Source of the DNA: Flavobacteriia bacterium
Lineage (GTDB): Bacteria > Bacteroidota > Bacteroidia > Flavobacteriales > Flavobacteriaceae
Length of the DNA stretch: 34,657 bases
Assembly: GCA_030626085.1 (NCBI GenBank)
Contig: DAOUPQ010000003.1
Coordinates: 1 to 34,657 of the forward strand
Direction: 5' to 3'
This document shows, piece by piece, positions 4,551 through 14,385 of this stretch. Under the pieces are notes generated by a model. It did no database searches and had not been told where the DNA came from. It saw only the letters and a list, made by a program, of their open reading frames with translations. Every line of letters begins with the position of its first letter. The first letter of the stretch is position 1. The position numbers were made by a program, and so were the translations under genes.

Positions 4551-5330
4551 TTATACATAAAAATACTTTTTAATTATATTTTTTACATTTTGTAATACAA
4601 GTTCTTTGGCCCATAGTAAGGAGTTCTTATGCCACCTTTGAGGATGAAAAGTAAACATTATTTTTTTAGGTAATTCGGAAGAATTTATTGCTTTGATTAT
4701 CTGATTAGTAGAATGGTACTTTTGTTCAAAGGAACCATTAACTTTATCTCTAACACTAACTTTATGACCATCCCACCTTCTACCTGTATCTGTTAAATAA
4801 AATACTTGGTTAAAATCAACGTCAAAATAGGGTTCGCCAATTATGTCAAAATCCAAATAATTATATTTTTTCCATAGTTCTTTATTATCAAATTTTGATC
4901 TAGGACTTCCATGCATACAGATAGTCTCAACATTTACCAATTCCCTTATTTCATTTAAATGCTGTTCGAATTGATCTATTGCTAAATCAACATCTCCTCT
5001 TGCTGTATCCATTGTTTCATAATGATAGCCTAATTCATGACCTAAACTATCAATTTGCAATATAATATCTTCATCCCAACTCTCAGGAACTGCTCTAAAA
5101 TAATAAGATCCTTTTATACCTAATTTATTCTGAATCTGAGCAAATTTCAAAGAATTTTGTGGTAATAAATCAACATCATGCCTTAGAATTACAACTTTAT
5201 TTTTAGGTTTTTTAATAAACTCTTCAAAAGTCTGAAAAGAATAGTTTTTTTCCTTAAGAGTTGTAATTAATTCAGTATATTTTTTTAAAGTAAAATCCAT
5301 TTTATTTTTTAAATAAATTTTGATAATCAA
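4551..5330 (-). CDS. Polysaccharide deacetylase (NodB-like) family protein
   Basis: Seen motifs fit a NodB-type, metal-dependent deacetylase: VVILRHDVD at about 46-54 (the His-Asp-x-Asp block), GHELGYHYE at about 97-105 (the His motif), ICMHGSPRS and a late IMFTFHPQRW. No signal peptide is visible, so it probably acts in the cytoplasm on a nucleotide sugar or lipid-linked intermediate. The ORF opens with MIIKIYLKNK, but Met11 (MDFTLKKYTEL, codon at 5298-5300) is a more natural start. It sits 81 bp after the DUF354 gene and 63 bp before a hexapeptide acetyltransferase, so deacetylation followed by a new acylation is one reading. The substrate is unknown. Confidence 0.8.
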   Translation of the reverse strand: MIIKIYLKNKMDFTLKKYTELITTLKEKNYSFQTFEEFIKKPKNKVVILRHDVDLLPQNSLKFAQIQNKLGIKGSYYFRAVPESWDEDIILQIDSLGHELGYHYETMDTARGDVDLAIDQFEQHLNEIRELVNVETICMHGSPRSKFDNKELWKKYNYLDFDIIGEPYFDVDFNQVFYLTDTGRRWDGHKVSVRDKVNGSFEQKYHSTNQIIKAINSSELPKKIMFTFHPQRWHKNSLLWAKELVLQNVKNIIKKYFYV

Positions 5331-5411: not shown

Positions 5412-6533
5412 TTAGATATTTTCATAGAATTTAAAATTTTGATTACAAATCAGTTCTTTGAGAACTAAATGGGTAACCCTATTATCTTTAATAATACTAA
5501 CACTTTTTGGATAATTTTCTATAAACCAAATTAAAAACCCAGTAACATCTATTTTATCTTTTAACAAAGCTTTTCTTTTATCTATCCAATTATTTTGTTT
5601 ACTATTTTTAATAATTTCTTCAGCTTTATAAATTGCTAAAATTTGATCATCATGACTCTCAGTAAAATTAAATACTAAACCATATTTTTTTTCAAGTTCA
5701 TTTGTATATAAACGACCTGTATCATCAATGTATATTCCAGGAGTACCAAGAACGGCTCCTTCAGATATCATTGTTCCACTTTCTCCAAATATTAATGATG
5801 CAAATGCCATAGCATCATGAATTTTTTCAGGTTTTAGCGGAAACTTATATTTTAATAAATCGGGAGGTAATTTTTTTTCTGATGATATAAATACTTTTGA
5901 GTATTTAGATAAAGTTTTTACTACTTTTATTTTGTTCTCAATTGACATCCCACTATGATTTATATCATGTGTAGCTTCCCAACTAACAAATCTAACAATA
6001 CAAAACTTTTCTCCTTGTGATAATCCTAACTCATTTATCACTTTACTATTTGGTGTAAATCTATTGGGATGTAAATATGCTAACTCATGATAACCAGAAT
6101 ATTCTATTGTTTTAGCTCCTAAAAATGGATGCATATAATCTGATGTTAAAATAACAGAAGTAAATGGTTTATATAATCTAATTTGCTCAAAATTAAATGT
6201 GTCTTCAAATGATATGTGGGATTTCCTCATTAACCAAGCAATTTGAGCAGCGTAAATTGAACCATGACTCAAAAAAAGATTAGGTTTAAATTTTAAAGAA
6301 ATAACAAACAACTTAAAATTAAATAAAAATAAACCTATAATTTTTCCAAATGATGTTTTAAATTTTTTCCCAAAAGATACATACTCAAAATTATACTTTT
6401 TTAACAAATCAATCTCAAATTCTTTCTCCCTACATGTAAATAATATCTTATGTCCTTTTTTTTGCATTTCCCATGCAAAATTTTTAAACAGATGAACATG
6501 TGCCGGATGGCCAATATCTATCAAAACTTTCAT
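5412..6533 (-). CDS. DUF354 family protein (glycosyltransferase/UDP-GlcNAc 2-epimerase-like fold)
   Basis: The N-terminus MKVLIDIGHPAHVHLFKNFA is the hallmark of DUF354, a family with a two-domain GT-B-like fold related to UDP-GlcNAc 2-epimerases and MurG. Other matching blocks are FLSHGSIYAAQIAWLMRKS, EKIHDAMAFASLIFGESGTM (the nucleotide-sugar-binding region of GT-B folds) and LGTPGIYIDDTGR. Its length of 373 aa is about normal. The start codon overlaps the end of the decarboxylase-like gene by 4 bp (ATGA), so the pair is coupled, and the ATP-grasp gene is just upstream. It may be a glycosyltransferase or epimerase; no reaction is established for the family as far as I know. Confidence 0.82.
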   Translation of the reverse strand: MKVLIDIGHPAHVHLFKNFAWEMQKKGHKILFTCREKEFEIDLLKKYNFEYVSFGKKFKTSFGKIIGLFLFNFKLFVISLKFKPNLFLSHGSIYAAQIAWLMRKSHISFEDTFNFEQIRLYKPFTSVILTSDYMHPFLGAKTIEYSGYHELAYLHPNRFTPNSKVINELGLSQGEKFCIVRFVSWEATHDINHSGMSIENKIKVVKTLSKYSKVFISSEKKLPPDLLKYKFPLKPEKIHDAMAFASLIFGESGTMISEGAVLGTPGIYIDDTGRLYTNELEKKYGLVFNFTESHDDQILAIYKAEEIIKNSKQNNWIDKRKALLKDKIDVTGFLIWFIENYPKSVSIIKDNRVTHLVLKELICNQNFKFYENI

Positions 6534-7333
6534 TCTTCTGCAATTATTGTTTTAATGGCAAAAATCTGTTCTCCTAATTTCACTTTTACCTTGTATCTTA
6601 CAGGGATTATTAAATCAACCTGACTTCCAAAACGAATCATGCCAAACCATTGACCCTGTTTTAGCTCTTGACCAATTTTTACATATGAATCAATTCTTCT
6701 TACCAGTCTTGATGCAGTTTGAACAATTCCAACTGTCATTCTATCATTTTTGATTACCAACGTATTTCTCTCATTTTCTAAAATTGCTTTTGGCTCTTTA
6801 AGAGATAAAAATTTGCCAGCAATATGTTTATTTAGTATTACTTCACCTTTAATCGGTGCACAGTTCTTATGAACATCAAAAGGTGTCATATTAATACCTA
6901 TCAGCCAACATGGAGTTTCTAATAAATCGGTTTGAGTTATTTCATTTAATTTTGCTTTTAAACCTTTTTTTATAGATATTGGAACCTCTCCTTTATTGAT
7001 TTTTTTTATATAAATTATATTTCCATCTGCTGGTGAAACCATTTCGTTTTTCTTAGCATCAATTTTTCTATTTGGGGTTCTCCAAAATCTAATCATGGTT
7101 AATGTAAATGCAAAACCTAAAACCAAAATCGGAATAAGAAAAAATAATAACCAATTATAATTTGGTGGTATTAATCTAACCATAATAAAACAAGTTAAAA
7201 ATGTCAATATTATGGCAATTATATTGTCTTTATACAAATATGTAAGACTAATTCTTGTTTTTTTATGTAAATACAAATAAGTTAAAGAACTTATTATTAA
7301 GCTTTCAAATAAATATGTTAATAATGTAATCAT
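6530..7333 (-). CDS. Phosphatidylserine decarboxylase-like pyruvoyl enzyme with N-terminal membrane segments
   Basis: Residues from about 98 match the phosphatidylserine decarboxylase family in order: MVSPADGNI, NMTPFDVHKNCAPIKGE, LENERNTLV, RLVRRIDSY and FGMIRFGSQVDLIIP. In this family the chain cleaves itself before the Ser of the C-terminal GS(T/R) motif to form a pyruvoyl group; here that is Ser237 in FGSQ. About three hydrophobic helices precede the domain, so it is a membrane protein. The upstream ATP-grasp gene ends 6 bp before it and the DUF354 gene overlaps it by 4 bp, an arrangement not expected of housekeeping phospholipid synthesis. A dedicated decarboxylase acting on a seryl or similar group attached to the glycan precursor is possible (inference); ordinary PE synthesis is the alternative. 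Confidence 0.85.
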   Translation of the reverse strand: MITLLTYLFESLIISSLTYLYLHKKTRISLTYLYKDNIIAIILTFLTCFIMVRLIPPNYNWLLFFLIPILVLGFAFTLTMIRFWRTPNRKIDAKKNEMVSPADGNIIYIKKINKGEVPISIKKGLKAKLNEITQTDLLETPCWLIGINMTPFDVHKNCAPIKGEVILNKHIAGKFLSLKEPKAILENERNTLVIKNDRMTVGIVQTASRLVRRIDSYVKIGQELKQGQWFGMIRFGSQVDLIIPVRYKVKVKLGEQIFAIKTIIAEE

Positions 7334-7339
7334 CTTTTT

Positions 7340-8488
7340 TTATCGTTTTAAAATAAAATATGGAAAATATATAATTTCAAAAATTGCAGGTTTTATATCC
7401 TCTAATTCCCATACCGCATATTTAGTGTTTTTTTTAGTCTTAGGATAATTTATGTTTAATAATTTCATTTTAATCATTGTAGGAATATCAGTAACCAAAT
7501 GTCTAAAAGTAGCACTTTCCTGATTATTTTTAATTATTGGCTCTAAGTTATAAATATGATGATATAGGCTCATCAAAATTGGAGACAAACTTTTTTCTGT
7601 CATTGAATGCCATTTCCAAGTACGAGGATTAACTTCTAAAAACTTATAGGTATTGTCTCTTGTGTCAAATTTAAATTCTACTTCACAAACTCCAGTAAAA
7701 CTAACTTTTTTTAATATTTTTTTAGCATATTCGACTAACTCAGGCATTTCAACTGTTTCAGCATAGGTTGTTGCATTTCCAAAATCAGGTGGGTGTTGCC
7801 TTGCTCGTCTTGCAGAAAGTGTAACTAATGGTCTATATCCATCAAACATAAAACAAACAGAATATTGATGTTCACTATTTCCTGGGATAATATCTTGAAT
7901 AATAACTTCTTCATTTGGTATCAATGCTAATGCTTTTTGATAATTATCTTTCAATTCAGTATAGTTTTTACATACAAAAACCTTTTTTTTTGTCTTTGAG
8001 TAAAAAGTATGCATTACAGCAGGTTTAATTATACATGGATAAGTAATGTCTAATTCTTCAATCTCATTCCAACTATTAGCCATCCATGTTTTTGGAATTA
8101 AAATATTTAAATCTGCTGCTAATTTATACGTAAGTCTTTTGTTAAAAAAATATTGAAGTATATCAAAATTGACTGTGCTAACCTTGAAATATTTAGACAA
8201 TTCGTTTTTATTTTCTCCTAATATTCCCACAACTAAATCATTGGTGGGCATTAGCAACCAGTTTTTATATTTACTGTTTTTTCCTAAAAAAAATAATTTA
8301 TTTAATAATTCCCCTTTCTTATATTTTATAAACTTTTTGCAATATTTTGAATGTCGCGTTAAATTAATGATAGTATGATCTAAAAGAATTACAGGAATAT
8401 TATTTTTACCATATATTCTTGTAATTCCCAGTCCTTGTACATGACCTCCAATCACTATTACACCTGGTTTATCTTTATTAATAATCAT
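7340..8488 (-). CDS. ATP-grasp family carboxylate-amine ligase
   Basis: The N-terminal GVIVIGGHVQGLGITRIYG resembles the pre-ATP-grasp nucleotide-like fold. The ATP-grasp core shows YPCIIKPAV (first ATP lysine), EEVIIQDIIPGNSEHQYSVC and the metal-binding end FTGVCEVEFKFD and YKFLEVNPRTWKWH, the ExNPR motif. Such proteins activate a carboxylate as acyl phosphate and join it to an amine or thiol. At 382 aa it is typical of the ATP-grasp proteins seen in surface glycan loci. It is the first gene of a tight group with the decarboxylase-like and DUF354 genes, suggesting that it attaches an amino acid to a sugar carboxylate or similar group. The substrate is not readable from sequence. Confidence 0.85.
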   Translation of the reverse strand: MIINKDKPGVIVIGGHVQGLGITRIYGKNNIPVILLDHTIINLTRHSKYCKKFIKYKKGELLNKLFFLGKNSKYKNWLLMPTNDLVVGILGENKNELSKYFKVSTVNFDILQYFFNKRLTYKLAADLNILIPKTWMANSWNEIEELDITYPCIIKPAVMHTFYSKTKKKVFVCKNYTELKDNYQKALALIPNEEVIIQDIIPGNSEHQYSVCFMFDGYRPLVTLSARRARQHPPDFGNATTYAETVEMPELVEYAKKILKKVSFTGVCEVEFKFDTRDNTYKFLEVNPRTWKWHSMTEKSLSPILMSLYHHIYNLEPIIKNNQESATFRHLVTDIPTMIKMKLLNINYPKTKKNTKYAVWELEDIKPAIFEIIYFPYFILKR

Positions 8489-8738
8489 TATATTATACTT
8501 TTAATGATTTAATCGAAAATAATTCCTTGAGGCTTTGCCTCGGGGTTTCCAATTAAACCTCTCCTAAAAGGAGAGGTCAAAACTGTTTTTATAGTTTTGG
8601 GTGAGGTTTAAATAAATAAATTTCGTTTTTTGCACCTTTAAGTCAAAATGAAATGAGCGCCCGCCTGCCGGTCGTGGCAGGAAATACCTCTATAGCTCTG
8701 CCTCGAGGATAGTTCGTTTCAAGAAATTTTTTATTTTT
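8489..8738. repeat. Intergenic mosaic of hairpin-forming repeats
   Basis: This 250 bp spacer contains no ORF but three clean hairpins: GAGGC/GCCTC (8529-8541), ACCTCTCCT/AGGAGAGGT with a 3-nt loop (8557-8577) and a G+C-rich CCTGCC/GGCAGG (8664-8681). The middle one is followed by a block ending ttttgggtgaggttt. These resemble the repeated intergenic filler common in Bacteroidota genomes, and their G+C content stands out from the surroundings. Any of them could end transcription of the ligase gene before the ATP-grasp operon, but none has a classical T-tract. Confidence 0.6.
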
Positions 8739-10190
8739 TTATTTCTTCCCTGTAGATTTAATCATCATTTTATCTAAAAACTCAAATTTTTGAGGAATTT
8801 TATATAACGCTAATCTATCCTTGCATTGCATTAAAATTTCTTTTTTAATTAACTCTTTCTTATCAAATCGATCTATTACCACAATGGCTTTTAATACTTC
8901 TCCTAAAACATCATCATAAACTCCTTTTATCGTACAATCTACAACCAAAGGTACTGATAAAATAACTTCTTCAATTTCTTTAGGGCTTATTCTTTTCCCA
9001 CCAACTTTTATGATCTCTTTTTCTCTGGCAACAATATAAATATATCCATCTTTATCCATTTTTGCCAGATCTCCTGTATAAAGCAAGCCTTCTTTTAGGA
9101 CTTCCTTAGTTCCTTCGGGATCTTTATAGTATCCTGACATTATATTACCTCCTTTTGCAACAATTTCTCCGACTTCACCTAATGGGGGTTCGTTACCTTC
9201 TTTATCAACAACTTTAAGTATTACTTCAGGTATGGCTTTACCAATCGATCCCAATTTACTTAATACCAATTCCGATGGTAAATAAGATAATCGTGCCGTA
9301 GCCTCGGTTTGCCCATACATCACATTAAAATTAATATCCGGAAAAGTTTCAACAAATTCTTCGATAAATACGTTGTGTAATTTCCCACCGGCTTGCGTTA
9401 CATATCTTAGATCCGGGAATTTGGTCTCTTTAAATGATTTTGATTTTTTTAATAACATTTGATAATGACTGGGTACACCAGAAAAACCTGTACATCTAAA
9501 CTTCTTTAAATCATTTATTACTGTACCTAAAAACATAAATGTATTGTTAAATACAACCTGACCACCAACTCTTAAATGTGTATGAAGCAATGATAGTCCA
9601 AAACAATAATAAAATGGTAAAACAATCAATTGAATATCCTTTGATGTTAATCCTAAATATTCTATAATTGAATCAGTATTTGAAATAATATTTTGATGGG
9701 TAATCATTACCCCTTTTGGTTTACCTGTTGAACCGGAAGTGAAAATTATTTCCGCCAAGTTTTGACTAACAAAAACACTATTAAGATCAATAATATTTTG
9801 ATTTTTAAGAATTTTATCAAATTTATCTTCATCTATAATAGTTTTAAACCCTTTTAGATCTAATTTCGATTCTATTTTTTTATCACAAAAAATTAGATCA
9901 CTCTCTGTTGTATTAGAAATAAAATTTAAATTTTCCTGTTCAATTGAAAAATCTAATGGTACGCAAACATTTCCCGATTTCATAATACCTAAATATACAG
10001 TAATAAAAAAAACTGAATTTTGATTTATTAATACAATCTTTTTATCAATACCGATACTTTTATTTAAATAGGCAGCAATTTTAAGACTATTGTTATAAAG
10101 CTCTTTATAAGAAATTGTTTCTTTATTTCCTATCACAAAATCTTTTTCCAGATATTTTGTTTCTTTAAAAAAGTAATCAAATACATTCAT
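8739..10190 (-). CDS. AMP-forming acyl/aryl acid ligase (ANL superfamily)
   Basis: All main motifs of the adenylate-forming (acyl-CoA synthetase/NRPS A-domain) family are present: IIFTSGSTGKPKGV (about 148-161), VMYGQTEATARLSYLP, LYTGDLAKMDKDGY, VAREKEIIKVGGKRISPKEIEEV, and a final KSTGKK carrying the catalytic lysine. The protein stops one residue after that lysine, so the usual short tail is missing. With an ACP gene nearby, it most likely adenylates a carboxylic acid and loads it on the ACP phosphopantetheine, comparable to the ligase/ACP/amidotransferase sets of exosortase-associated EPS loci. The acid is unknown. An octamer tandem array begins 13 bp before its start codon. Confidence 0.87.
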   Translation of the reverse strand: MNVFDYFFKETKYLEKDFVIGNKETISYKELYNNSLKIAAYLNKSIGIDKKIVLINQNSVFFITVYLGIMKSGNVCVPLDFSIEQENLNFISNTTESDLIFCDKKIESKLDLKGFKTIIDEDKFDKILKNQNIIDLNSVFVSQNLAEIIFTSGSTGKPKGVMITHQNIISNTDSIIEYLGLTSKDIQLIVLPFYYCFGLSLLHTHLRVGGQVVFNNTFMFLGTVINDLKKFRCTGFSGVPSHYQMLLKKSKSFKETKFPDLRYVTQAGGKLHNVFIEEFVETFPDINFNVMYGQTEATARLSYLPSELVLSKLGSIGKAIPEVILKVVDKEGNEPPLGEVGEIVAKGGNIMSGYYKDPEGTKEVLKEGLLYTGDLAKMDKDGYIYIVAREKEIIKVGGKRISPKEIEEVILSVPLVVDCTIKGVYDDVLGEVLKAIVVIDRFDKKELIKKEILMQCKDRLALYKIPQKFEFLDKMMIKSTGKK

Positions 10191-10514
10191 TTTTTAATGC
10201 TGTAATGGGGTAATGTGTTAATGAGATAATAAGATAATGCGTTAATGAGATAATGCGTTAATTGTATAATATTTATCATTGATTATTTGTCCAATTAGCA
10301 TCATCCATGTTCGATTTATTTTGAACGCTGATGACGCGGATTAAACTGATCTGCACTGATTTCTTATCTGTGACTATCCATATAATCTGTGTTCTGTTTT
10401 GTAGAGATCTCTCTATTCCGTTTCACTACAATCGAAATGACATACAACTCTAGATTTGTAAACTAATCTACTGATACTACTTACTTTTTGAACTTTTAAC
10501 TTTATACTTTTAAC
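10191..10514. other. Intergenic region, 324 bp, filled with repeat remnants
   Basis: No gene is visible. From left to right it holds the octamer array, a block with acgctgatgacgcggatt and gatctgcactgatttc (about 10323-10396), a TCATTTCGA-type palindrome remnant (10401-10443, read on minus as GTCATTTCGATTGTAGTGAAA) and a heptamer array at the end of the NAD synthase-like gene. I recognise these as the kind of short dispersed intergenic sequence common in Bacteroidota. No convincing promoter for the ligase gene was found. Confidence 0.55.
10203..10266. repeat. Octanucleotide tandem array (TAATGNGN), about 8 units
   Basis: Reading the plus strand, TAATGGGG TAATGTGT is followed by TAATGAGA, TAATAAGA, TAATGCGT, TAATGAGA, TAATGCGT and TAATTGTA in strict 8-nt register. 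Within it the 16-mer TAATGCGTTAATGAGA is partly repeated. The array ends 13 bp before the ATG of the AMP-forming ligase gene, so it forms that gene's 5' leader. Confidence 0.85.
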
Positions 10515-10517
10515 TTA
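10490..10517. repeat. Heptanucleotide tandem array (NAACTTT) at the 3' end of the NAD synthase-like gene
   Basis: Four 7-nt units, GAACTTT TAACTTT, ATACTTT and TAACTTA, run up to and include the stop codon (10515-10517) of the NAD synthase-like gene. The register is exact. Confidence 0.7.
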
Positions 10518-11495
10518 AAAGATCGATCTCATCCTTAAATATTCAGTAGTTTTTCTTTTCCTTTCAAAATTCTTATAATTATTCTCAATTTCCTCCGTAG
10601 TTTTTCTCATTATTTTTCCCACTTCTTCGGCAGAATAGTCATTTTCCCATCCGTACCAGATTAAATCCATCTCTTCAAAAGGCATTTGATAGAAAAAATC
10701 TTCCTGAGTTTGTTCTGCAGTATAGGTATCTGTTGTTGGCGTACGATCAATTATTTCCTGAGGCACACCAAGATATTTTGCCAATTGATAAACCTGTGTT
10801 TTATACAGTTGTCCGATTGGCATTACATCAGCTGCTCCATCACCATGTTTAACAAAAAAACCTTGTTCTACTTCATGCTTATTTGGTGTTCCAATAACAG
10901 CATAATGCAATCTTTCAGCATGATAATAAAGCATGGACATCCTACTGCGTTGTTTAAAATTTGTTGAGGCAACAATTTGTAGATATTCTTTTACAGGTAA
11001 GATCTTACTTTTAACATCACCATTTGGTTTTATAACGGTAATGGAAGATATTGCAGGCATATTCTGACTTATATTTTGCTTGATCTCAATTTTTGCTTTA
11101 TCCACTTTAGGATCAAAATCAGTAATTACGCTGGAAATTGCTTTATCTCTTCTTTGGTAACAACCAAAACCATCCAATGCATTTGTTATATCTTCAATTA
11201 AAGTAGAAACGCCGAATTTATCTGCCAATTTTCTTGCTAACATTTCACTATCGCCACTTGAATCCTGTTCAGGCAACATAATTCCTGTTACTCTTTTAGA
11301 TCCGAATGCTTTAGCAGCTAGTGCCATAACAACAGAAGAATCAATACCTCCACTAATACCTATGATAGCTCCTCTTCGTTGTAGCTGACGAGTAACATCA
11401 TTTTTTAATTTATCAATAATTTCACTGCATACCTTTTCAATATTTTCAATATGTAAAATATCTTTTGAAAATGGTTTTTTATCTTTTGTTATCAT
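10515..11495 (-). CDS. nadE: NAD(+) synthase-like adenylating amidotransferase
   Basis: The protein shows the N-type ATP pyrophosphatase loop IGISGGIDSSVV (about 45-56) and the NadE-specific order of blocks: PEQDSSGDSEMLARKLA, FKQRSRMSMLYYHAERL, VIGTPNKHEVEQGFFVKHGDGAADVMP and LYKTQVYQLAKYLGVP. NadE adenylates nicotinate-adenine dinucleotide and amidates it with ammonia. The late substrate block reads RTPTTDTYTAEQTQEDFF, divergent from the usual form of housekeeping enzymes. No glutaminase domain is present, so ammonia must come from outside. Its place between an AMP-forming ligase and an asparagine synthase suggests a specialised amidation in glycan modification rather than cofactor supply (inference). 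True NAD synthesis remains possible; the symbol records family only. Confidence 0.85.
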   Translation of the reverse strand: MITKDKKPFSKDILHIENIEKVCSEIIDKLKNDVTRQLQRRGAIIGISGGIDSSVVMALAAKAFGSKRVTGIMLPEQDSSGDSEMLARKLADKFGVSTLIEDITNALDGFGCYQRRDKAISSVITDFDPKVDKAKIEIKQNISQNMPAISSITVIKPNGDVKSKILPVKEYLQIVASTNFKQRSRMSMLYYHAERLHYAVIGTPNKHEVEQGFFVKHGDGAADVMPIGQLYKTQVYQLAKYLGVPQEIIDRTPTTDTYTAEQTQEDFFYQMPFEEMDLIWYGWENDYSAEEVGKIMRKTTEEIENNYKNFERKRKTTEYLRMRSIF

Positions 11496-11946
11496 TGTTT
11501 CTTATTATATTTTTTATTTTTTTACTACTTACATGAATTTAGTTGAAAATTCATTATCAATAATTTTTGATTGTTTTTATTAGGTTAGTTTATAATACTA
11601 TTTATTCTTTTTCTCATTGATGGAAAAAGAAACAAAAAGATCTAGGCTTCAAAATCATAAACTAATCTGTTCATTACCTACTAATCAAATCCATCAAGTT
11701 AATGAATTCAAATCTTATCTAATTATTTTTAATGATTTTTTACCCCCAACCCTAAAGGGTGAAATCATTAAATACTAAGCTTTTTTGACTCCCTTTAGGG
11801 TAAGGGGAAAAACAAAAAAGCTAGAACTTATTAATATTGGTCTGTCCGACAAGGCAGGCTTTAGGGAAGGGGTCAAACAAAAAAGCGCAATATGTCAATA
11901 TTCACAATCCTTTTAATTTGTTTTATACTTTATAATCGGGGTGATT
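11496..11946. other. Intergenic region, 451 bp, with CCCTAAAGGG-type repeats
   Basis: There is no ORF. The left half is plain A+T-rich DNA with a block cattgatggaaaaagaaac resembling common Bacteroidota filler. The right half carries an inverted repeat (listed separately) and a third related piece, gtccgacaaggcaggcttta, followed by gggaaggggtc up to 11874. No promoter box could be assigned. Confidence 0.5.
11749..11801. repeat. Inverted repeat ACCCTAAAGGG / CCCTTTAGGGT
   Basis: Perfect 11-bp arms (11749-11759 and 11791-11801) flank a 31-nt loop, and each arm is itself nearly palindromic. C-rich and G-rich runs just outside extend the pairing imperfectly. It may fold in the transcript between the asparagine synthase and NAD synthase-like genes. 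Confidence 0.7.
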
Positions 11947-13920
11947 TTAATCAATAACCACTTTATCCAATACAACCAAATCCTCTTCACTTAATTTAGG
12001 CATAGATCTCTTAACAAATAAATCATACAAAATCTGAGTTGATAAAATCCCTGTCAATGCCATATTATCTATTTCCGAAACTTGTTTTTTTGAATGCATT
12101 TTAGTTAGAAGTAATTTTACATGTTTCAAATTAAAGATTCCATAAGATATTATTCTATCATCAGAAAACATTTCCTTTAGATACTTCGGTAAAACACTGG
12201 AAATAAAAGTGCTTTTTATAGGAGCTCTATAAGCCTGTTTTGATCGGTTTAAAATACTATCAGGTAATCTGCCTTTCATCATTTTCTTTAACAGATATTT
12301 TTCATTTAAACCATGAAGCTTAAGATCGGGGTTTAGTTGCATTGCAAACTCAATCACTCTATGATCTAAAAAAGGATATCTTCCTTCTATTGAATTCGCC
12401 ATAGCCATCCTATCTCCTTGTGAAGATAATAAATAACCCGACATAAAAATATTTAATTCAATCCATTGAGCCTTAGTTAAAGAATCATAACCTTCTAATC
12501 TATCCTTAAGCAGCTTTTCAATAGTATTAATTGGATTATAATCTCCAATTAAATCTTTATACTCCTTAGATAAATAATTCTTTATACGAGAAGTATTATT
12601 CCACCTTAATAAATGCGAATAAATTGGTGATTCTGTTTCATTGAGTTTATAGCCAAAGAACATTTTTAAAATATTGCTATTGGCACTCTTCATTTGAGGT
12701 AAATATGGATATAATTTTTTTAGTAGAAGTGAACGGTATTTTGATTGTGGATCTTTAGCCCAAAAACGTCTGATCTTAGTTTCCTTAAAAATATTATAAC
12801 CTCCTAAAAGTTCATCTGCACCCTCACCTGTTATAACAACTTTAATATGATGATCTTTTACGTTTTTCGCAAGTAAACTCATGGGAGTAGGAGCTGTACG
12901 TAGCAATGGAGCTTCTGTATACCAAACCACTTCTTTAAAATTTTTTGCTATTTCTTTTGGACTACAAGTTATACTTGAATGCTGTGTGTCAAAGTATTTT
13001 ACTGCAGTATTTTGATAAGAAGATTCATCAAAATCTTTTTCGGTAAATCCAATAGAAAATGTTTTAAGATTCTTAGGTGATATTTTCTTTATAAAAGAAG
13101 TCGTTATACTTGAATCCAGACCTCCACTTAAATAGGCCGCAACCGGCACATCAGCTCTTAATCTTAATTTAACCGCATCCAAAAAAATTTCTTCAAACTC
13201 TTTTGATGCTTCTTCAATATTGTTGTATTTATATTCATTTGGTTTATGAATAGGTAATTTCCAGTAGTTTGTCTTTTTTATACCTTTTTTATTGATGACC
13301 ATAAAAGATCCTGGAGGTATTTCAAAAATTCCTTCAAAAGCAGTATTTGGACTTAAAGATGTCCAAAAAGTAAAATATTCTGAAAGGTTCTTTGCGGATA
13401 TTTTAAATTCCATTTTAGGAAATTCTAAAAAGGATTTCATCTCTGATGCAAAAACAAAAGAACCTCCAACTACCGTATAAAACAAAGGTCTTATCCCTAC
13501 TCTATCTCTTGCCAGAAACAATTCTTCTTTCTTTTTATCCCAGATTGCAATAGCAAATTGTCCATTAAGTTTGTTGAGGAAATCCGAACCGTATTCTTCA
13601 TACAAATGAAGAACTACCTCTGTATCACTATTGGTTTTAAACTGATGACCCTTTTTAAACAATTCTTCTCTGAGTTCAATATAATTAAAAATCTCACCAT
13701 TAAAAACAATCCATAATGAATCATCATAATTGGATATTGGCATTGTCCCCGATACAAGATCGATAATACTTAAACGCACACTACCTAAAGCAACCTGATC
13801 GGATATAAAGACACCGCTTTCATCCGGACCACGATGCTTAATTCGGGTTAGCATCCGTTTTAGAATACTCTGCGATTCTTCTTTATATAAATTTGGATAA
13901 AAACCTGCTATTCCACACAT
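11947..13920 (-). CDS. Asparagine synthase (glutamine-hydrolysing)-type amidotransferase 1
   Basis: The N-terminal class II glutamine amidotransferase domain starts MCGIAGFY with the nucleophile Cys2 and includes RIKHRGPDESG, VRLSIIDL and FNGEIFNY. The C-terminal synthetase domain has the ATP loop SGGLDSS (265-271), VVITGEGADELLGGY and IEGRYPFLDH. Glutamine-derived ammonia would be passed to an adenylated carboxylate. At 657 aa it is a full-length member. In glycan loci such AsnB paralogues usually amidate uronic acids or carrier-bound acids instead of aspartate. It is one of two in this cassette, which also has an ACP and an AMP ligase. Free asparagine synthesis is the alternative. Confidence 0.9.
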   Translation of the reverse strand: MCGIAGFYPNLYKEESQSILKRMLTRIKHRGPDESGVFISDQVALGSVRLSIIDLVSGTMPISNYDDSLWIVFNGEIFNYIELREELFKKGHQFKTNSDTEVVLHLYEEYGSDFLNKLNGQFAIAIWDKKKEELFLARDRVGIRPLFYTVVGGSFVFASEMKSFLEFPKMEFKISAKNLSEYFTFWTSLSPNTAFEGIFEIPPGSFMVINKKGIKKTNYWKLPIHKPNEYKYNNIEEASKEFEEIFLDAVKLRLRADVPVAAYLSGGLDSSITTSFIKKISPKNLKTFSIGFTEKDFDESSYQNTAVKYFDTQHSSITCSPKEIAKNFKEVVWYTEAPLLRTAPTPMSLLAKNVKDHHIKVVITGEGADELLGGYNIFKETKIRRFWAKDPQSKYRSLLLKKLYPYLPQMKSANSNILKMFFGYKLNETESPIYSHLLRWNNTSRIKNYLSKEYKDLIGDYNPINTIEKLLKDRLEGYDSLTKAQWIELNIFMSGYLLSSQGDRMAMANSIEGRYPFLDHRVIEFAMQLNPDLKLHGLNEKYLLKKMMKGRLPDSILNRSKQAYRAPIKSTFISSVLPKYLKEMFSDDRIISYGIFNLKHVKLLLTKMHSKKQVSEIDNMALTGILSTQILYDLFVKRSMPKLSEEDLVVLDKVVID

Positions 13921-14004
13921 AAAAGGTTAAGTGTTTTTTGTTGATGTGTTTGTCTGTGTATTTGTTAAACTCACTACCCTATATTAATTCTAAAAACGAA
14001 TGTT

Positions 14005-14044
14005 GTCATACTGAGCGAAGTGATAACGTAGTCGAAGTATCTCT
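14005..14044. repeat. TCAT-type intergenic repeat element
   Basis: The stretch gtcatactgagcgaagtg followed by gtagtcgaagtatctc is a copy of the TCATnCTGAGCGnAG...GTCGAAGnATCTC element found repeatedly between genes in Bacteroidota. It lies in the 207 bp gap between asparagine synthase 1 and the ACP gene. Related but diverged copies are at 10401-10443 and 34173-34252. Confidence 0.6.
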
Positions 14045-14107
14045 TTCTTTTTTTACTGACTATCTGTCTAATCAGTGTTATCCGTGTTCCTTTTTCTTCT
14101 CAACATT

Positions 14108-14149
14108 AGACCTTTGACTTTCGACTTTCAACCTTTGACTTTGGACTCT
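14108..14149. repeat. Heptanucleotide tandem array (YGACTTT) across the ACP stop codon
   Basis: Six units in exact 7-nt register (AGACCTT, TGACTTT, CGACTTT, CAACCTT, TGACTTT, GGACTCT) span the stop codon of the ACP gene at 14128-14130. The last ACP residues, ESKVKG, are encoded by the repeat. Confidence 0.8.
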
Positions 14150-14385
14150 AATAACTTTCCTTCAACAAATTCAACAATACTATTAATAGATTCAAAATTT
14201 TTAGGATTAAGCTCATCATCATCTACCTCTACATGATAATTCTCATTGAGAAACTCAATAAGAAAGAGAAGACCCATAGAGTCTAAAAGACCAGTGTCAA
14301 AGATTAGTGTATCGTCTTTGATCTTATTTGCATCTGAAAGCGATGCTTCAATAATGTAGTTTTTGATTTCTTCTTTTGTTTTCAT
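14128..14385 (-). CDS. Acyl carrier protein
   Basis: This is an 85-aa protein with the size, acidic character and four-helix pattern of an acyl or peptidyl carrier protein. The phosphopantetheine attachment motif is DTGLLDSMGLL, with Ser36. A 4'-phosphopantetheinyl transferase from elsewhere in the genome would activate it. Lying between two asparagine synthase-type genes and near an AMP-forming ligase, it is probably a dedicated carrier for an acyl or aminoacyl group that is amidated or transferred to a sugar, not the fatty-acid ACP. The C-terminal ESKVKG comes from a heptamer array crossing the stop codon, so the tail has probably been changed by repeat insertion or expansion. Confidence 0.88.
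   Translation of the reverse strand: MKTKEEIKNYIIEASLSDANKIKDDTLIFDTGLLDSMGLLFLIEFLNENYHVEVDDDELNPKNFESINSIVEFVEGKLLESKVKG

Follow-up and report, generated by a model that had tools for sequence, protein, structure and literature searches.

A phosphatidylserine decarboxylase-like protein in a recurrent module of bacterial glycan loci: a possible route to amine decoration of surface sugars

What might a homolog of phosphatidylserine decarboxylase (PSD) be doing in the midst of a bacterial glycan locus? The question is posed by a stretch of 34,657 nucleotides from a Flavobacteriia bacterium (hereinafter the window; contig C39 of a 1.5-Mb host assembly that is 51.6% complete), in which a PSD-like gene lies between genes for an ATP-grasp protein and a DUF354 protein. 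The original prediction, made from the window alone, held these three genes to be a coupled unit, in which an amino acid such as serine is ligated to a sugar carboxylate or a lipid-linked intermediate and then decarboxylated, giving an ethanolamine-type decoration. Using comparisons across genomes we find that these genes, together with a fourth, constitute a real, recurrent module that has apparently not been described so far. Our verdict is that this module probably carries out an amino-acid or amine decoration of glycans, which is of a known kind, but with an enzyme of the PSD family in a context that is new for it.

The four-gene module and its occurrence

The unit lies on the minus strand and is read in the order ATP-grasp (7340-8488; 382 residues), PSD-like (6530-7333; 267 residues) and DUF354 (5412-6533; 373 residues), with all three open reading frames (ORFs) intact. 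The tight junctions reported originally are exact to the base: a gap of 6 bp (7334-7339) separates the first two genes, and the second and third overlap by 4 bp (6530-6533). The unit as first drawn was nevertheless one gene short, as it left out a gene coding for a 259-residue NodB/CE4-like protein (4551-5330, minus strand), which is situated 81 bp downstream and belongs to the same unit.

Related loci were first recovered by searches of other genomes with the ATP-grasp protein. Four PSDs from these loci were aligned to serve as the query in a scan of 84,980 species genomes, which yielded 48 loci; upon annotation with profiles and tblastn, 39 of these were found to contain PSDs of the window's type and nine to contain other PSDs. 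The same clade of ATP-grasp proteins is encoded in all 39 of the former and in none of the latter (Fisher p 6e-10); the association is not by chance. The two genes are directly adjacent in 37 of the 39 loci, the non-adjacent cases being L091, with a DUF354 gene in between, and L108, with four genes in between (the contigs of these two also appear as L064 and L062). DUF354 genes occur in 33/39 and genes for the NodB/CE4-like deacetylase in 28/39 of the loci, and several of those that lack one or the other are truncated contigs. The co-occurrence of the three originally named families in other glycan loci, which had been suggested as a check, is thus borne out. In most loci the genes are tightly packed, being separated by a few bases or overlapping slightly, and the few larger overlaps are extensions of open frames. 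An apparent PSD-DUF354 gene fusion in L088 was discarded, its upstream part being an out-of-frame reading of the PSD gene. Our literature searches found no published description of such a module, in agreement with the earlier statement that no system of this form was known. As a separate observation, in four loci (L079, L083, L090 and L102) a CE4-like gene in inverted orientation comes after the module, and behind it lies a very long ORF (1331-2311 residues) that perhaps codes for a large surface protein.

In a maximum-likelihood tree of 70 PSDs (computed by a quick method, with an arbitrary root and moderate support), the 40 PSDs from glycan loci form one group (Shimodaira-Hasegawa-like approximate likelihood ratio test support 81), the 26 ordinary PSDs another (89), and four PSDs linked to GCS2-like ligases, considered below, a third (100). 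The carriers of the module span Bacteroidota, Ignavibacteriota, Cloacimonadota, Omnitrophota and Acidobacteriota; one of the loci, L075, comes from an isolate genome, that of Nafulsella turpanensis ZLM-10. Two further loci, L090 and L103, are labelled Methanomicrobiales and Chloroflexi and carry the module, yet branch inside Bacteroidota; they may represent misbinned contigs or recent transfers. No close orthologs of the window's PSD were recovered from 298 genomes of the host's order: the best matches are at most 43% identical and, when placed in the tree, group with the ordinary PSDs. A search for carriage on plasmids likewise found only ordinary-looking PSDs, up to 34.5% identical.

The PSD gene is not an obligate member of these loci. 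The ATP-grasp searches recovered a PSD in 4/7 loci of the ATP-grasp clade, and L060, L061 and L063 combine ATP-grasp, DUF354 and CE4-like genes with no adjacent PSD; genomes G357 and G407 have an ordinary PSD only and no second one. An optional PSD fits a late tailoring step, an alternative being that PSD-less ligases possibly use another amine. L060 itself belongs to the host assembly (contig C121, 20001-40000), where it constitutes another glycan locus similar to that of the window; it is without a PSD and contains a UDP-sugar dehydrogenase gene. Its products are closely similar to those of the window (acyl-carrier-like protein 92%, NAD synthase-like 87%, AMP ligase 83%, AsnB 81% and ATP-grasp 71% identity). 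It may be a paralog of the window's locus, or else a variant from another strain in the same bin.

The window's module is embedded in a long glycan locus that codes for glycosyltransferases, Wzx- and Wzy-like proteins, an MBOAT protein, two AsnB-like amidotransferases, an NDP-hexose 2,3-dehydratase and a bacterial sugar transferase. Upstream of the unit (8739-14385) are genes for an AMP-forming acyl ligase, a protein of the NAD(+) synthase family (425 bits against an NCBIfam cut-off of 313 for PRK00876), AsnB and, at 14128-14385, an acyl-carrier-like protein, which recur jointly in L060 and possibly form a separate amidation or acyl-activation set. The 250-bp gap upstream of the unit contains a palindrome-like sequence, CTCTCCTAAAAGGAGAGG (8559-8576); since the window has only this one copy, a DNA repeat was rejected as the cause of the gap.

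The PSD-like protein and its partners

The PSD-like protein matches the Pfam profile PF02666 with 136.4 bits (cut-off 22) over positions 1-197 of 198, but falls under every NCBIfam equivalog cut-off for phosphatidylserine or archaetidylserine decarboxylases (168.6 of 225, 168 of 183 and 165.2 of 230). As originally noted, it retains the motifs of the family, including FGSQ at the self-cleavage site; SPADG and DVHKN are also present. Its D103, D153, H155 and S237 correspond in the alignment to the E. coli residues responsible for PSD self-cleavage and decarboxylation, namely D90, D142, H144 and S254 (PMC7952604). The first three residues are present in all 41 rows of the clade alignment and S237 in all 38 rows that reach this position; self-cleavage at Ser237, resulting in a pyruvoyl enzyme, is predicted from these conserved residues. 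A further position of note is that of E. coli Tyr137, which contacts the lipid phosphate (PMC7952604): it is N148 in the window protein, N, A, T, G or I across the clade, F in six ordinary PSDs and Y in the four GCS2-linked PSDs. The altered residue hints at a substrate without that phosphate, and is only a hint because Phe also cannot form the same hydrogen bond. FGSQ and an insertion of about 20 residues were rejected as hallmarks of the glycan clade, as they are common to the PSDs of L109, L110, L112, L113 and L115. No sequence relatives of the clade were detected in PDB at E 0.01.

The extra membrane helices that had been ascribed to this protein are in part a property of its clade: by hydropathy three segments are seen in 27 of 40 members, as against at most two in ordinary PSDs, and its N-terminal part is about 30 residues longer than in the host's ordinary PSD. 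In the window protein itself, however, only two segments pass the threshold, as in that ordinary PSD.

The latter, the second, housekeeping psd that the original prediction had called for, was found on contig C77 (217 residues, with FGSR), directly behind a cdsA-like gene, so that the main condition set for refuting that prediction, a genome with no other PSD gene, is not the case. The host also has pssA (107.2 bits with its neighbours in frame; cut-off 107). The PSD-like protein is therefore not the sole or housekeeping PSD paired with phosphatidylserine synthase. The same holds for most carriers, as a second PSD is present in 15 of 18 genomes (all four from the ATP-grasp searches, G000, G360, G436 and G461, and 11 of 14 others), and in the three that lack one (two Cloacimonadota and one Omnitrophota) no phosphatidylserine synthase of the TIGR00473 or E. 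coli type scores over its cut-off. Because of these two observations the PSD-like enzyme probably does not make phosphatidylethanolamine, and the pattern across carriers suggests that it does not need phosphatidylserine.

The ATP-grasp protein is recognized by the Pfam profiles PF02786 (CPSase_L_D2; 37.8 bits, cut-off 19.8) and PF02655 (ATP-grasp_3; 25.5 bits, cut-off 23.2). Across 21 relatives E271, E285, N287 and R289 are invariant and K155 nearly so, such that the catalytic acidic and asparagine residues are kept; its nearest solved relatives, all remote, are CarB, 2pn1 and the L-amino-acid ligase 3vot. These features point to a putative amide-bond-forming ligase. The DUF354 protein matches PF04007 (41.8 bits, cut-off 22), and its AlphaFold model (predicted local distance difference test (pLDDT) 88) is predicted to adopt a GT-B fold that is closest to UDP-GlcNAc 2-epimerases (best PDB match 1f6d, E 6e-12, template modeling (TM) score 0.68), with MurG and other glycosyltransferases further down. 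The fourth protein has no match in Pfam or NCBIfam. It conforms to CE4 motif 1 (xHDxD) and motif 2 (HExGxH), and the signatures RHDxD, HE(I/L)GYH and MHGSP are kept over 19 relatives; the top PDB matches of its model (pLDDT 90) are CE4 deacetylases, weak but consistent (E 1.6e-4 for 2vyo to 9e-4, TM about 0.4-0.5).

A possible mechanism and its alternatives

We propose, with a probability of roughly 0.4, that the four genes constitute a transferable glycan-decoration module acting by deacetylation, ligation and then PSD-like decarboxylation to an amine-tipped amide. The CE4-like hydrolase would free an amine on a lipid-linked amino sugar, to which the ATP-grasp ligase, by the chemistry of its family, might couple an activated amino-acid carboxylate. 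The coupled amino acid would retain its alpha-amine and alpha-carboxylate, as in a gamma-glutamyl or beta-aspartyl linkage. The membrane-associated PSD-like enzyme, if self-cleaved at Ser237 as its residues predict, could then engage the free alpha-amine in a Schiff base and remove CO2, the result being an amide of the 4-aminobutyryl or beta-alanyl type that bears a free, positively charged amine. The DUF354 protein, given its predicted fold, may add or convert the sugar bearing this group, and loci without a PSD would make the same decoration with the carboxylate kept. Three features lead us to favor this order, with ligation before decarboxylation: the presence of a deacetylase among the partners, the location at the membrane and the fact that the PSD is optional. 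The changed phosphate-contact position, together with the deacetylase, points away from a phosphoserine-like headgroup.

Several observations weigh against this proposal. Whereas the gene set, its linkage, the subfamily and the conserved residues are observed and the folds are predicted, every substrate and product, as well as the order of steps, is inferred. The deacetylase and DUF354 genes are not in all loci, both being absent from L107 and L108, and the activity of the CE4-like protein is surmised from its motifs together with a weak match in fold. Ordinary PSDs of this type have Phe at the Tyr137 position, which leaves the loss of the phosphate contact suggestive, and the carriers without phosphatidylserine synthase are metagenome-assembled genomes that are possibly incomplete. 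Among the GCS2-linked PSDs, which keep Tyr, the ligase match is weak in L110 (Pfam 22.3 bits, cut-off 21) and there is none in L112.

If decarboxylation came first, serine, phosphoserine or a seryl lipid would be converted to an ethanolamine-type amine that the ATP-grasp ligase then joins to a uronic acid. Such a route is chemically sound, has a precedent in Campylobacter jejuni Cj1436/Cj1438 (PMC12409886), and might draw on the UDP-sugar dehydrogenase homologs encoded in L060, L071, L075, L081 and L096. Searches with the L060 and L081 homologs as queries, however, recovered no such dehydrogenase in the window or most related loci, and no obvious phosphatase is seen among the annotated genes of the window, the only part of the genome searched for one. 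Moreover, the PSD-like enzyme looks membrane-embedded by hydropathy, which would be odd for a soluble substrate, and the ligase clade also occurs where the locus or the genome has no second PSD; on balance we regard this route as unlikely, albeit a serious contender. The family membership and membrane segments of the PSD-like protein would equally suit a paralog acting on a lipid, such as a seryl phospholipid or an unusual glycan lipid anchor, to give a phosphatidylethanolamine-like head group, with the ligase acting separately. We consider this improbable given the distribution of ordinary PSDs and phosphatidylserine synthases among the 18 carriers, the strict linkage of the clade to the ATP-grasp gene, and the lack of homologs in the glycan loci of the PssA-like proteins encoded beside L114, L116 and L117.

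The linkage also bears on the notion that genes of separate routes are merely co-located. Glycan loci do shuffle their genes readily, and the PSD is absent from some loci with the ATP-grasp, DUF354 and deacetylase genes; but co-occurrence in 39/39 versus 0/9 loci, adjacency in 37/39 and a spread over at least five phyla make the lack of a shared pathway very improbable. Least credible of all is the chemistry first envisaged, in which the amine of serine itself forms the bond with a sugar carboxylate and decarboxylation follows. The gene order and the optional PSD do fit ligation ahead of decarboxylation, and a ligase plus a decarboxylase is still the best reading of the locus; yet an N-acylated serine has no free amine, and a pyruvoyl enzyme needs one in order to join its pyruvoyl group to the substrate in a Schiff base (PMC7952604). 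Decarboxylation must then precede ligation, or else the attachment of the amino acid must proceed via another group.

The proposed ligation followed by decarboxylation might have a parallel elsewhere. In L110, L112, L113 and L115 (three from Clostridia, with near-identical PSD-like proteins, and one from Subteraquimicrobium), a PSD-like gene with the same GSQ and insertion follows a GCS2-like carboxylate-amine ligase gene (L113:7296-10711; L110:4335-6184). The L110 ligase, which scores 22.3 bits, is 52% identical to the clostridial one, and in the Clostridia the ligase gene sits behind a fusion of a family 2 glycosyltransferase (GT2) and a PIG-L deacetylase. In these genomes neither type of phosphatidylserine synthase scores over its cut-off. 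The recurrence of a glycosyltransferase, a deacetylase, an amide ligase and a PSD-like enzyme, built from non-homologous parts in two lineages, is suggestive. We tentatively entertain the broader idea, itself somewhat doubtful, that pyruvoyl enzymes of the PSD family were drawn away from phospholipids into the decarboxylation of amino acids that had first been ligated to membrane-bound glycans, and that this arrangement arose on at least two occasions with partners that are not homologous (ATP-grasp, CE4-like and DUF354 in Bacteroidota and relatives; GCS2-like, PIG-L and GT2 in Clostridia). It would yield amine-tipped, possibly zwitterionic surface sugars by a logic not described before.

If the proposal is true, the annotation as phosphatidylserine decarboxylase is wrong for many genes of Bacteroidota, Ignavibacteria, Cloacimonadota and other groups, which instead point to a hidden decoration of the amine type on surface polysaccharides. 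When glycans bear positive groups, their charge and material properties change, as does their recognition by phages and the immune system. The proposal would also provide roles for DUF354 and an unassigned CE4-like family, and predicts a gain of 44 Da per repeat of the glycan when the PSD step is lost.

Comparison with known systems

The nearest known counterparts of the PSD-like enzyme are the bacterial phosphatidylserine and archaetidylserine decarboxylases (PF02666; PRK05305, TIGR00164), with which it shares the fold family, the D/H/S self-cleavage residues and a membrane-anchored N-terminus. The glycan clade differs from them in its scores below the equivalog cut-offs, its separate group in the tree, the N, A, T, G or I at the Tyr137 position, its constant association with an ATP-grasp ligase and the several carriers with no detectable phosphatidylserine synthase. 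The GCS2-linked pairs resemble the module in that an amide ligase adjoins a PSD-like protein in which both GSQ and the insertion are present, accompanied in Clostridia by a glycosyltransferase/N-deacetylase fusion; they differ in their non-homologous ligase, deacetylase and glycosyltransferase, in the Tyr at the Tyr137 position and in having been seen in two lineages only.

The ethanolamine/serinol amidation of the C. jejuni capsule (Cj1436, Cj1438 and Cj1435) also combines a decarboxylase, the pyridoxal phosphate (PLP) enzyme Cj1436, with an amide ligase in decorating a surface glycan. There Cj1436 converts serine phosphate to ethanolamine phosphate, with which Cj1438C amidates glucuronic acid, and Cj1435 removes the phosphate (PMC12409886). 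In contrast to the proposed module, a soluble serine phosphate is decarboxylated before ligation, a phosphatase acts after it, and no PSD-family, CE4-like or DUF354 protein is reported.

The order of steps that we favor resembles that of the butirosin side-chain pathway, in which the ATP-grasp enzyme BtrJ attaches glutamate via its gamma-carboxylate and BtrK then removes the alpha-carboxylate, giving a 4-aminobutyryl group that ends on an amino-sugar amine. The butirosin pathway differs in being carrier-protein based and in modifying a soluble antibiotic rather than a surface glycan, and its decarboxylase, BtrK, is a PLP enzyme (PMC2922099) rather than a member of the PSD family.

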